In this document: positions 17,313 to 46,451 of the stretch, piece by piece
Position numbering within the stretch: position 1 is the stretch's first letter
Layout of the letters: each line of letters begins with the position of its first letter
Origin: Methanolobus psychrophilus R15
Lineage (GTDB): Archaea; Halobacteriota; Methanosarcinia; Methanosarcinales; Methanosarcinaceae
Assembly: GCA_000306725.1 (NCBI GenBank)
Contig: CP003083.1
Span: forward strand, 620,001-684,000
Direction of reading: 5' to 3'
Length of the DNA stretch: 64,000 bases
The notes under the pieces: generated by a model
What the model saw: the letters and a program-made list of their open reading frames with translations, nothing else
What the model was told of the DNA's origin: nothing
Databases searched by the model: none
Made by a program: the position numbers and the translations under genes

Positions 17313-18227
17313 ATGAGATCAAAAACCTGCTTACCTTCAGACCTGAAAATGGTCATAGCGCTTGTCCTGATGACAGACCTTTTCATACTCATCCCTTTTC
17401 TGAGCAACAGTCCCATCCGTACCTTACTGGGCCTTCCCATGGTGCTCTTTCTTCCGGGCTATGCTTTGATAGCTGCCCTTTTCCCCTCTAAGGATGATCT
17501 GGACGGGATAGAACGCATTGCCTTAAGTTTTGGACTGAGCATTGCAGTGGTCCCCCTCATAGGACTGGGACTGAATTACACTCCCTGGGGCATACGACTT
17601 GTCCCCGTACTTGTAGCAGTCTCAGCCTTCACCCTTGCCATGACCCTGATATCTTCCTACAGAAGAAAGAATGCGGGTGAGGATGCATTTTCGGTTCCTT
17701 TCATGCAGATGTATACATCCCTGAGAGATGAACTGAGCTCAAAGCCACAGTCAAAACTTGACCGCATCCTGAGCATTGTGCTTGTTATCTCGATCCTGTT
17801 ATCTGTCATCACTCTTGTATATGTGGTAGTAACTCCCAAACAAGGTGAGAAGTTCACGGAGTTCTACATACTGGGCACACAGGGCTTGGCAGATAACTAT
17901 AACACCCGCCTTGTAACAGGCGAGAGCACCGATGTGATAGTCGGCATCGTCAACCATGAATATGCGACTGTCAACTACTCCCTTGAACTGCGACTTGATA
18001 ATGAAATAATGGATATTCCGTCCAGCTTCAGGCATATATCGCTTGAGCATAATGCCACCTGGGAGATGCCTCTATCGTTTTCTCCTGCCTTTACAGGAAA
18101 TGACATGAAGCTGCAATACCTGCTCTACAGAAAAGACAACATGACAGCGCCTTACAGGGACCTTCATCTCTGGATCAGCGTCAGGGAGCCCGGGGAAGAT
18201 TCTTCTGACATAGGACATGAATCCTGA
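17313..18227 (+). CDS. DUF1616 membrane protein
   Basis: 304 residues. Four hydrophobic segments occupy the N-terminal ~120 residues (including LLGLPMVLFLPGYALIAALF, typical of the family), then a cytoplasmic loop. A further membrane segment (ILSIVLVISILLSVITLVYV) precedes an exported beta-rich domain with FTEFYILG and VGIVNHE. This matches DUF1616 proteins of Methanosarcinales, often found in surface glycan regions. The biochemical role is unknown. The start lies ~170 bases from the IS right end, so promoter elements may have been altered by the insertion. Confidence 0.85.
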   Translation: MRSKTCLPSDLKMVIALVLMTDLFILIPFLSNSPIRTLLGLPMVLFLPGYALIAALFPSKDDLDGIERIALSFGLSIAVVPLIGLGLNYTPWGIRLVPVLVAVSAFTLAMTLISSYRRKNAGEDAFSVPFMQMYTSLRDELSSKPQSKLDRILSIVLVISILLSVITLVYVVVTPKQGEKFTEFYILGTQGLADNYNTRLVTGESTDVIVGIVNHEYATVNYSLELRLDNEIMDIPSSFRHISLEHNATWEMPLSFSPAFTGNDMKLQYLLYRKDNMTAPYRDLHLWISVREPGEDSSDIGHES

Positions 18228-18738
18228 TCCTGTCTGAGCACAACCTATATTGGTCTGTATCACTTTTTCCATCACAGGTGCCCTGGGCAAGAACAGGCTG
18301 GACCCCGTCAGGCTGACAGGCCTGAATAGCCTGTTCATGTTGCGCGCATTTTGAGTGCATACTGCGGAATAAATGGAAATATAACCATTGTACTCTGTGA
18401 AAACACTTATTATGTCGTGTTGCGGCATTAATTAATCGGATTATCCTCTAAAGGACAAGGATTTGCTTTATAAGTGCTTTGAAATATCTAATACAAAATG
18501 CTCAGGAACATTACTTCCAAACTTATAAATCTTACAATGATTCCTATAGAGTAGTTTTTTAAATTTTCTTAAAATGCTTACTCCCCTTTAACGCGCGATA
18601 ATGTTATAAACGTAGAGCAATGTTTGTATATTGGAGTGGAATGGATTTACGGCTATTGAATAGCAGTTGCCATGTATACTTCTGGAATTGTATTCAAGGG
18701 GGCTTGAATACATTATTATATTTAACGGGGGAGTACAA
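18228..18738. other. Intergenic leader region of the glycosyltransferase gene
   Basis: No gene supported. An inverted repeat (GAACAGGCT at 18291-18299 with AGCCTGTTC at 18328-18336) could terminate the DUF1616 transcript. A TATA-like GTTATAAACG lies near 18603, leaving a leader of roughly 110 bases before ATG 18739. Confidence 0.45.
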
Positions 18739-43590: not shown

Positions 43591-45768
43591 TCAAGGATAT
43601 AACTGCACGTTCTCCCGGGTACCATACGAGGAGGGCGTTACAAATCCAGTCTCTGTAACGGCACCAGCATCAGGTGTCAATGTTATTTGCATTGCCGTTC
43701 CCGGAGCGATGTTCAGTGCGGAATTTGTTAGATTACCAACGTATATGGAGCCGATGCGATTATTGCCAGTTGCACTCGTGGAAGTAGTTGCAATATAAAT
43801 TGTCACCAAGTCACCCATATTAATTACAGGATCTGCCTGTGAGAAAGAGCCGTCCTCATCACGTATCTTTTCCGCAGTATAGAACATGGATGGATTTCCT
43901 GTGCCTGTAAGCAGGTTCTTCAGATTCTTCGTGGCACTATACGAGTCAAAAGAAGCCATCTTTCCATACCTTCCATCATTACCTGCGTAAACAAGCTTAT
44001 GTGTGGTCTTACCGTCGTTCACCTTTATAGCAACATTATTCAGATCTACAGGAGAACTACCTACATTGAGCCCTACATTAATCTTGAGTAAGTCTACAGT
44101 AGACGACATGGCACCGGCATCACTCTTTGCGCGCACTCCTTCTATGTTCTTGACCATCAGGTTGGATGACACTTCCTGGGTCGACTGCTTGCCTTCCCAC
44201 ATATCCAGAGGGATGAACGATACGCGAGTGATTATCCAGCCTGCTTCGGAGTTCTGGAGCTTGAAGTAGATAGGTATGGAAAACGAATCTTTTTCCCTCC
44301 CGGAGATATCGAGGCTGGCAACCAAGCATTCGGCTTTTACGAGCGCAAGGTTATCAGACATCTCTGTTGAAGTAATATTTATCTCCTTGATGCCTCCTGC
44401 CTGGATGTCTTTGTTCTTGAATATCATAGGAATACTTCCAGGAGCAAGGAAATCCTTGCCGCTATACATGGCAAAAGCTGAACCAGGATCATCTTTATTG
44501 ACAGCGGTCAAAAAGTTCACAACCACAGCTTCTACTGCTCCCTCCTGTGATGGAAATGGGCTTACATTATAATGATCAAGGATGTCCGGAATAATCAACT
44601 CCGTAAGTGGAGCATCATTGATGATTGAAAAAACTATAAAAGCTGCTATTAAGATCAAGGCAACCGAGCTATACTTCATCCTGTACTTTCCGGAGGGAGC
44701 AGTTTTCTTCTCAGCCTTTTCGGCTGCCGCCCATTCTCTCAGCCTTCGTGTCTCAAGTGCTTTCCTTTGCTCATCCCTTTTCCTCAAACGCTCCAGTTCC
44801 TCATGCTTGCGCCTCTGACGCTCTTTTTCCTGCCTCCATACATCGTCTTCATTCTCATCAGCGTGCCAGGCAACATTATCAGCGGTATTTACCATAACAG
44901 CCAAAGACTCGGCATTGCTACTCTGCATGGCACCATCCTGGAAACTCAGAGAGGAGGGACCCTGCTCTGCTGATGAGATGCTTTGTTTCAGAGCAGAGTT
45001 AACGGTACTGATGAAGTGATCATTTTTGATGACACCTGCATCCTTTAACGACCTTGCAGTACCCACGAGGCGCTGGAACCTGGAAACGATCTCATCGAGG
45101 AAATCCTGTGTACCGGCAGTTCTTGATGAAACAGCCCTCAGCATTACCTGAGTAAGGGCATCGCTCTTTCTTATAAGAACGGCCAGCAGGTAATAAGATT
45201 CCTCACCTGCGAATCCGCCTGAGAGGTACACTATCCTGCCACCATCCACAGCACGCTCTCCTACCTTATACATACAATTGGCGCACGTCTGCAAGAGGAA
45301 TAAAAGAACCTGGTCAACATATACGCCTTCAAAGTTCAGACCGGCTTCTGCCAAACGACTCCCGGAAGAAAGGTCCAGGAACTCACCCATTGATATTGGT
45401 CTTGTACATAAGAAAGGAAATATACAATGTATATCCCTAGGTTCCATTGTGAGAACATGCTTCTCCCAACGATGGTCACGGTAAGTGATATTAGCTTCAA
45501 TTAGTTCGTTATGAATACATGAAAGAGGTTTGAGAATGAATTTCACAACACGAGCAACGGCAGGTGGAATGCTGTCAAGTTTCTGTACCCTGTCGCCTTG
45601 TAATTTCAACAGCGATTCATTATGATCAAGTGTAACCTCTAAGTCGTTAATGACAAAATCTGTATTGTTGGTGATCCATATATTGAATAGAATGCTATTA
45701 TCAGGAAGGATCTCGTATCCCCTGCCTATTTCAATTGCCATTGATCGATCACAATAAGGGATTTGCAT
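43591..45768 (-). CDS. Membrane protein with C-terminal archaellin domain
   Basis: About 725 residues from ATG 45768; a TTG at 45807 and an ATG at 45741 are alternatives. Four parts follow. (1) Residues ~10-120: a beta-sandwich-like cytoplasmic domain (WITNNTDFVINDLEVTLDHN). (2) ~125-300: an alpha/beta segment, then a charged coiled linker (~307-357, WRQEKERQRRKHEELERL). (3) One membrane span ~366-384 (SVALILIAAFIVFSII), then an exported NTF2-like region. (4) ~532-725: an archaellin-like domain with VEGVRAKSDAG-like IEGVRAKSDAGAMSSTVDLL, VGLNVGSSPVDLNNVAIKV and the closing TPSSYGTRENVQLYP. Archaellins normally start with a class III signal and are ~200 residues; this fusion is unusual. It may sense or anchor an extracellular filament. 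Confidence 0.8.
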   Translation of the reverse strand: MQIPYCDRSMAIEIGRGYEILPDNSILFNIWITNNTDFVINDLEVTLDHNESLLKLQGDRVQKLDSIPPAVARVVKFILKPLSCIHNELIEANITYRDHRWEKHVLTMEPRDIHCIFPFLCTRPISMGEFLDLSSGSRLAEAGLNFEGVYVDQVLLFLLQTCANCMYKVGERAVDGGRIVYLSGGFAGEESYYLLAVLIRKSDALTQVMLRAVSSRTAGTQDFLDEIVSRFQRLVGTARSLKDAGVIKNDHFISTVNSALKQSISSAEQGPSSLSFQDGAMQSSNAESLAVMVNTADNVAWHADENEDDVWRQEKERQRRKHEELERLRKRDEQRKALETRRLREWAAAEKAEKKTAPSGKYRMKYSSVALILIAAFIVFSIINDAPLTELIIPDILDHYNVSPFPSQEGAVEAVVVNFLTAVNKDDPGSAFAMYSGKDFLAPGSIPMIFKNKDIQAGGIKEINITSTEMSDNLALVKAECLVASLDISGREKDSFSIPIYFKLQNSEAGWIITRVSFIPLDMWEGKQSTQEVSSNLMVKNIEGVRAKSDAGAMSSTVDLLKINVGLNVGSSPVDLNNVAIKVNDGKTTHKLVYAGNDGRYGKMASFDSYSATKNLKNLLTGTGNPSMFYTAEKIRDEDGSFSQADPVINMGDLVTIYIATTSTSATGNNRIGSIYVGNLTNSALNIAPGTAMQITLTPDAGAVTETGFVTPSSYGTRENVQLYP

Positions 45769-46138
45769 CTTACTATAAATATATTTTGACTTCTTGGAAT
45801 TACACAAGTAATATTATAGAGTTGAATTTTTGATGACCTCAATTGAAATCATAGCACGTAATCACTCTTTGATACCGAACCTATACCTCAGGAATAGCCT
45901 GAACATATTGCATCCACCGGATTGTTTGCAAGAGCCTAACTCTTGAGTATCATCATTGTGACCGGAGCTGGCAGAAAGCGGCTTTTTTTTATAACGAGGA
46001 TTTATTTTTGTGCTATAGGGATATAATGGTTTTGAAATATATATTTATATTTCCTCTCATTTGAGTAATATTATGGAGATTTGAGAGTACAGATTGATCA
46101 TAATATGCGGTAATAGAAACACATGAGGAGATTTCTAA
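45769..46138. other. Divergent intergenic region
   Basis: No gene supported. It has a TATA-like CTATAATATT near 45810-45819 for the archaellin-fusion gene. The GAGGAG ribosome site for the broken NifX-like gene sits at 46124-46130. Confidence 0.45.
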
Positions 46139-46451
46139 ATGAAGATCTGCATAACAGCCTTGTCTGCCAGTCTGGATTCACCAGTGGATTCCCATTTTGG
46201 AAGAGGTCTGTACTTTGTCATTATGGATGCTGATTCTATGGAATATTATAGATGCACTTATCACAGGGAGTGTTGGAGCTAAAGCCATTTCAATGATCAC
46301 TTCAGAGAACATTGATGTTCTACCCTTCATTGAAGGTTCTGTCACAGATGCAATACTGGCTTACAAAGATAATGTCCTTAAAAAACTTGAAACCTCGAAC
46401 TCCTCTGGAGCACACAAACCAGGACAACACAACCGCATACACTGGAAATAA
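46139..46451 (+). pseudogene. NifX/NifB-type cofactor protein, broken
   Basis: ATG 46139 with GAGGAG upstream starts a typical dinitrogenase iron-molybdenum cofactor-binding domain (MKICITALSASLDSPVDSHF, then GRGLYFVIMD). After DADSMEYY the frame meets TAA at about 46280. The rest of the domain continues in another frame (DALITGSVGAKAISMIT, then VLPFIEGSVTDAILAYKDNV) to 46451. The middle ~25-30 residues expected in the family are absent, so an internal deletion plus frameshift has inactivated it. Confidence 0.75.

Follow-up and report, generated by a model that had tools for sequence, protein, structure and literature searches.

INTRODUCTION

Ears, or appendages, are docking platforms for partners in coats and constitute the recruitment platforms of the clathrin and COPI adaptors. 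In archaea, the history of these domains has so far been linked with loci of the ESCRT system. Makarova et al. (2024, PMC10936438) have described ESCRT loci of the Meth_adaptin type that encode ear proteins, one of them composed of an ear, a transmembrane (TM) helix and a GOLD domain, together with SPFH and ProX. In the archaellum, ArlF and ArlG are duplicates of the archaellin ArlB with shorter N-terminal helices, and ArlF binds the S-layer (PMC8667602).

Here, we have analyzed a gene from a 64,000-nucleotide stretch of the Methanolobus psychrophilus R15 genome (the window), the product of which is predicted to carry an ear on the cytosolic side of the membrane and an archaellin domain on the exported side. 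We found no paper on ear-archaellin fusions in open-access full text.

RESULTS

Layout of the fusion protein

The gene is an intact ORF with no internal stops (Table 1). An alternative ATG at position 45741 (residue 10) corresponds to the start point of many other ear-family members, and the start codon is uncertain within these nine codons. Hydropathy revealed only one TM helix in the 725-aa protein, which supported the original prediction of a bitopic protein with a TM span behind a charged linker. Basic residues precede this helix and, by the charge rule, would place the ear inside.

The same architecture was found near full length in two other genomes, with 79% and 74% identity, and as diverged versions in four more. 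Since it recurs in this manner, an assembly chimera is very unlikely for the window ORF. Our survey for the same fusion located it in further Methanolobus genomes, and an ear protein with an archaellin head was also found in Methanoperedens. A phage or plasmid origin was rejected as well: phage sequences gave no match to the protein, and the plasmid search returned only a distant, archaellin-like match on a Methanohalobium plasmid. On the opposite strand, at positions 46120-46451 (+) of the window, a NifX/dinitrogenase-cofactor-like gene is apparently broken by an internal deletion and a frameshift; its counterpart adjacent to this locus in genome G022 (L051:2990-3379) is intact (129 aa).

Table 1. 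Position of the gene and of its predicted domains within the window.
Feature	Residues	Coordinates	Strand	Basis
Whole CDS	725 aa + stop	43591..45768	(-)	ATG at 45768
Ear domain, Ig-like beta-sandwich lobe (predicted)	about 11-120	45409..45738	(-)	AF2 pLDDT about 94; fold matches
Ear domain, platform (TBP-like) lobe (predicted)	about 121-243	45040..45408	(-)	Fold matches of model
Charged linker	244-367	44668..45039	(-)	Sequence; low pLDDT from residue 245
Single TM helix	about 368-386	44611..44667	(-)	Hydropathy; family-wide charge asymmetry
NTF2-like domain, exported side	405-520	44209..44556	(-)	Model fold matches; 81% identity to lipoprotein
Archaellin beta-domain without alpha1, exported side	522-725	43594..44205	(-)	PF01917; model; PDB profile matches

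The N-terminal part is predicted to form a two-lobed ear

The AF2 model of the N-terminal part, generated from a 29-sequence alignment, had a mean pLDDT of 85.7. When this model was compared with the PDB by Foldseek, the top 17 matches were all coat-adaptor, COPI or BBSome chains, with E values of 2e-9 for beta-COP, 5.5e-9 for AP2 beta2, 6e-9 for AP2 alpha, 2.4e-7 for gamma-COP and 5.6e-6 for BBS9. VIA-align over residues 8-237 gave Z scores of 15.8 with beta-COP and 13.6-14.2 with the AP2 ears. Across both lobes, the rmsd to solved ears was 6-8 A, most likely owing to a differing angle between the lobes. The AP4 beta appendage (2mj7) matched model residues 81-239 with a Z score of 12.9 and an rmsd of 2.8 A, and the Ig-like lobe was matched at 2-3 A by the Ig-like folds of TRAP, BBSome and transglutaminase. 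At the sequence level, no ear family was matched in a Pfam scan of the 29 ear-family members, a profile of the N-domain had no matches among PDB sequences, and single-sequence phmmer against the PDB returned chance matches only. Residues 10-243 are thus predicted, by fold and with no sequence match, to be a complete two-lobed appendage of the AP2/COPI type.

The original prediction had placed a beta-sandwich domain at the N-terminus. A sandwich lobe is indeed present, but it makes up only half of the predicted ear, the platform lobe having been overlooked, as had the NTF2-like domain behind the TM helix. The prediction had also called the protein "sensor-like." Because the N-terminal domain is a predicted complete coat-adaptor appendage, we have dropped this label and regard the protein as a putative interaction hub that belongs to a modular family of surface proteins.

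Several residues of the ear are conserved in the family. C84, H86, H114, C115 and C117 (CxH ... HCxC) lie in the Ig lobe near the lobe boundary and are candidates for metal binding; in the window copy, position 117 is F instead of the C conserved in the family. A tandem motif of the "NIxDSVVQRS" type is conserved directly after the ear (L045, L046, L047, L025, L050 and others), and the window copy retains a degenerate remnant of the DSVVQR motif at the start of the linker.

The exported part combines NTF2-like and archaellin domains

The last ~195 residues had been assigned to the exported part of archaellins, and our comparisons agreed with this. PF01917 (Arch_flagellin) matched residues 526-707 with 42-46 bits, above its curated cut-off of 29.5 bits, over profile positions 40-160. 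The NCBIfam flagellin model PRK08541 was matched with an E value of 5e-24 and 85 bits, under its own cut-off of 210. A profile search of the PDB retrieved six archaellin sequences (best E value 9e-17), and identity to filament archaellins in BLAST reached about 61%. Residues 400-725, modeled by AF2 with a pLDDT of 88, gave Z scores of 18.4 with the archaellin of Methanocaldococcus villosus, 17.6 with M. jannaschii FlaB1 and 17.3 with that of Oxiplasma, and of 11.3 with the stator protein ArlF/FlaF. Structure prediction thereby returned archaellin and NTF2 folds for this region, in addition to the ear fold of the N-terminal domain. An unrelated beta-sandwich family for the C-terminus was ruled out by the PF01917 and PDB profile matches and by the archaellin fold of the model.

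The PF01917 match begins only at profile position 40, and the signal and alpha1 portion of the profile is absent from it. The fused part opens with GKQSTQEVSSNLMVK, the GKQSTQEVSS block that comes after helix alpha1 in filament archaellins. Hence, both the class III signal, the absence of which had been noted before, and the filament-core helix are missing. Without alpha1, polymerization of the head into a filament is unlikely.

The NTF2-like domain was recognized from its structure. NTF2/ketosteroid-isomerase folds matched the model over residues 401-519 with Z scores of up to 11.9, and zero families exceeded the cut-off in a Pfam scan of residues 405-520. The domain shares 81% identity with the NTF2 domain of a protein encoded in the same genome (L039:12054-13001), which is a predicted lipoprotein with an SGCIG lipobox, read from the sequence, and the gene of which adjoins the arlB genes. 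Phylogenetically, the NTF2 domains of the fusions in the window genome (G000), G016 and G022 fell within a clade of archaellum-locus lipoproteins (97/94 and 99/98). The NTF2 domain of the G001 fusion was placed among those of archaellin-free ear proteins (100/99).

Within the window, there are no other PF01917 matches. The genome has four arlB genes at 476-481 kb, about 180 kb from the fusion gene, and arlF/G/H/I/J-like genes, assigned solely from their size, order and sequence, at 2.26 Mb, which together appear to be a complete archaellum gene set. These distances are in line with the original prediction that no archaellum gene lies nearby. Two of the archaellin genes in the lipoprotein locus (L039:14662-15357 and 17977-18672) are highly similar and a likely substrate of gene conversion. 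Beside the archaellin genes of this locus there are also two histone-deacetylase-domain genes (PF00850; L039:9052-12032), with two GNAT acetyltransferase genes nearby.

The ear is kept and the exported head is swapped

We have then followed the ear through related archaea. The ear profile had 62 strong matches in the fetched loci, counted without de-duplication, and was matched in 33 of the 392 genomes drawn from the phylum. The records of the family belong to Methanosarcinales, ANME-2, Methanoperedens, Ethanoperedens and Methanophagales; a search of the window genome with the profile found no other ear proteins.

The exported heads are diverse. An archaellin head is also present on the Methanoperedens ear protein L065 (PF01917, 38.7 bits), OpuAC heads were identified by Pfam, and a GOLD head was matched by PF01105 with 25.3 bits, just below the cut-off of 25.9. 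Further heads are NTF2-like or, as read by eye, formylglycine-generating-enzyme-like and cupredoxin-like. This showed that the ear is kept across the family, with the exported head swapped among unrelated modules. The formylglycine-generating-enzyme-like C-terminal domains (by eye) occur in many ear proteins (L047, L028, L030, L057, L069, L076 and others), several copies of which are found in some genomes. A second kind of filament subunit fused to an ear was observed in Methanoperedens (L066:5992-7437), where the TM helix and the downstream sequence of the ear protein correspond to an archaeal type IV pilin N-terminus (PF07790, 35.1 bits).

In some lineages, the order is inverted and the ear is C-terminal, behind a signal peptide, an exported region and a TM helix. 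The K+R excess lies before the TM helix in 32/32 ear-first proteins and after it in 18 of the 23 ear-last proteins, in both cases indicating that the ear is inside.

The archaellin-head version was found in 7 of 27 Methanolobus genomes. Most genomes of the genus are without the fusion, and some of these have archaellin genes. One of the seven copies, that of G017 (L046:4353-6579), is split into a 331-aa ear ORF and a 384-aa TM-NTF2-archaellin ORF lying 76 bp apart, which may reflect either a real split or a frameshift.

Ears with and without ESCRT

A locus of the Meth_adaptin type was identified in genome G031. It contains an ESCRT-III-like gene (Snf7 match of 20.3 bits, under the cut-off), a Vps4-like AAA ATPase that matches MIT weakly, an SPFH protein with a zinc ribbon, and ear-TM-OpuAC and ear-TM-GOLD proteins that scored 407 and 362 bits with the ear profile of the window family. 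More distant ears, with 49-67 bits, are found in Methanolobus ESCRT loci.

The window genome was searched with PF03357, PF04212 and the Methanolobus Vps4 and ESCRT-III proteins as queries. As positive controls, ESCRT-III was detected in 14 and Vps4 orthologues in 13 of the 27 Methanolobus genomes. Four genomes with the archaellin fusion (the window genome, G016, G022 and G001) yielded neither an ESCRT-III nor a Vps4 orthologue, and strong ear genes occur in Methanolobus genomes both with and without ESCRT. The PF03357 matches in the window genome were below the family cut-off, with partial coverage of the profile, and those of PF04212 were short repeats in a 1069-aa ORF that exceeded the cut-off only if summed. 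With neither component found by these searches, ESCRT coupling in the window genome is improbable.

The archaellin segment diverges far more than the ear

The nearest species' sequence found for comparison was that of G022. Compared with it, the window gene had a dS of 0.13 for the ear, 0.16 for the linker (taken as residues 244-379, which includes part of the TM helix), 0.39 for the NTF2 domain and 1.21 for the archaellin domain; nearby genes had dS values of 0.12-0.24. Parts of the archaellin segment were only 51-61% identical at the nucleotide level, down from 90-97%, and the flanks remained alignable at 84-94%. Windows of this segment over residues 581-660 were 81-87% identical to G016, a mosaic pattern. 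Since the archaellin dS is far above that of the ear, the linker and nearby genes, identity is mosaic and the flanks remain alignable, we infer from this divergence that recombination with genes of the archaellin pool has probably replaced the archaellin segment, the ear staying in place. In all four segments (ear, linker, NTF2 and archaellin) pairwise dN/dS was 0.16-0.41, which indicates coding constraint.

Among the filament archaellin pairs of the two genomes, whose orthology is not certain, one is stable (dS of 0.24) and the others have dS values of 0.81 and more. In the tree, at least five label changes are needed to place the fused archaellin domains among archaellins. The placement of the long-branched ones (G017, G025 and Methanoperedens, and also the window copy) is unsure, and so is how often capture or conversion took place. 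A head tailored to its own filament was not supported: heads generally resemble the filament archaellins of other species at least as closely as those encoded alongside them, the latter being the best match in 1/7 Methanolobus cases, plus one tie, in a comparison where the filament gene set is incomplete for some genomes.

DISCUSSION

A probable tether with a captured filament head

The fusion protein is, on balance, probably a single-pass ear receptor or tether that is independent of ESCRT and has captured a filament head. As ears are docking platforms in coats, the ear on the cytosolic side could by analogy serve cytosolic partners in the same way, which would make the protein a transmembrane tether, the ear recruiting or positioning a cytosolic partner. 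The head would bind a target outside. Because both head domains share recent history with archaellum-locus genes, this target would most likely be related to the archaellum: an archaellin, the lipoprotein that carries an NTF2 domain, or the zone of ArlF/ArlG. The protein could anchor, cap or sense filaments, as originally proposed. The head itself should stay out of the filament core, as it has neither alpha1 nor the processing site, and in the window genome the protein would have to work without ESCRT-III or Vps4. More tentatively, the ears of Methanosarcinales at large could be an ESCRT-independent receptor-adaptor system, in which the conserved cytosolic ear has repeatedly recombined with swappable heads, filament pieces included, to read or hold the state of surface structures by means of an ear of eukaryotic type.

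Several other explanations have been considered. The protein could be an accessory archaellum anchor, stator or cap, with the tethered archaellin-fold domain holding or limiting the filament base and the ear providing the connection to the cytosolic side. Such a role has an archaellin-fold precedent in ArlF (Z of 11.3; PMC8667602) and is compatible with an NTF2 domain that groups with the archaellum-locus lipoprotein and with archaellin heads in Methanolobus and Methanoperedens alike. We consider it rather unlikely, however, given that arlF/arlG-like genes (judged from size, order and sequence) already lie beside the arlHIJ-like genes, that a long distance separates the fusion gene from the archaellum genes, that the majority of Methanolobus genomes, some with archaellin genes among them, do not have it, and that the head is unmatched to its own filament. 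A dedicated filament cap is further argued against by this poor fit together with the many unrelated heads on the same inner half; and with the archaellin version in only 7/27 Methanolobus genomes, the protein would not be needed for archaella in general. There is a slight probability that the protein acts as a cargo receptor of an archaeal ESCRT, the ear coupling exported cargo-binding heads to Vps4/ESCRT-III remodeling as proposed for the Meth_adaptin loci. Same-family ear-TM-OpuAC and ear-TM-GOLD genes do adjoin SPFH, ESCRT-III and Vps4 genes in G031, and distant ears lie within Methanolobus ESCRT loci (see also PMC10936438), but four genomes with the fusion yielded no ESCRT-III/Vps4 orthologue and strong Methanolobus ear genes are found irrespective of ESCRT.

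The divergence data bear on two more readings. A variable surface decoy or adhesin, that is, a tethered filament look-alike that absorbs viruses or contacts cells and is kept varied by recombination, would account for an archaellin segment with mosaic identity and far more diverged than the remaining gene. Some filament archaellins vary likewise between the same two genomes (dS of 0.8) and another does not (0.24). Against such a function, selection is on average purifying, with dN/dS not above 1, and the ear half would be superfluous for a decoy; we regard it as quite improbable. A decaying or accidental chimera without function appears extremely improbable, despite the patchy distribution, the degenerate DSVVQR motif and lost C117 of the window copy, and the split gene of G017 (L046): five more Methanolobus genomes have the ORF open and a sixth has it as two ORFs, and the dN/dS of the ear, linker, NTF2 and archaellin segments speaks for constraint.

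Ears had already been reported from archaea, as had an ear-TM-GOLD protein from ESCRT loci (PMC10936438). What is new, as far as our tools show, is that the head can be an archaellin or a pilin, that family members are encoded by genomes without ESCRT, and that the head has apparently recombined with the archaellin pool. The ears described here occur in culturable methanogens, also in genomes where our searches found no ESCRT-III or Vps4. Forming the inner half of proteins at the surface that exchange heads, they offer a way to learn the function of the ear without a coat, and possibly reveal what ears did before coats. In addition, a filament domain is here naturally fused to a cytosolic hub in genomes that encode an ordinary archaellum, which makes a role in anchoring or sensing the archaellum directly testable.

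Comparison with known systems

The predicted ear of the window protein has the whole two-lobed Ig plus platform fold of the AP2 alpha/beta2 and beta/gamma-COP appendages. Unlike these, it is archaeal, has no detectable sequence match to them and no alpha-solenoid, and belongs to a membrane-spanning rather than a peripheral protein. The ear of coat subunits is C-terminal to the alpha-solenoid, whereas that of the window protein is N-terminal and followed by the linker and the TM helix. The ear proteins of the Meth_adaptin ESCRT loci (PMC10936438) have a homologous ear and the same order of ear, TM helix and exported head. The window protein differs from them in its head (NTF2 plus archaellin), and its gene stands alone in a genome with no detected ESCRT-III/Vps4, whereas theirs are encoded with Vps4, ESCRT-III and SPFH.

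On the exported side, the beta-domain resembles archaellins (ArlB, PF01917) in sequence and fold. In contrast to ArlB, the window protein has no class III signal and no alpha1, carries about 520 other residues in front, and is encoded outside any archaellum locus. The Methanolobus archaellum-locus lipoprotein has the NTF2 domain in common with it, at the identity given above, but has a second beta-rich domain and neither ear nor archaellin. With ArlF/ArlG, the window protein shares an archaellin-fold domain held at the membrane, as reflected by the Z score with ArlF. Its head is nearer to filament archaellins, and it has in addition an NTF2 domain and a large ear on the cytosolic side; the stator proteins have an N-terminal TM helix and are encoded in the archaellum operon, whereas the window protein has an internal TM helix and is encoded at another locus.
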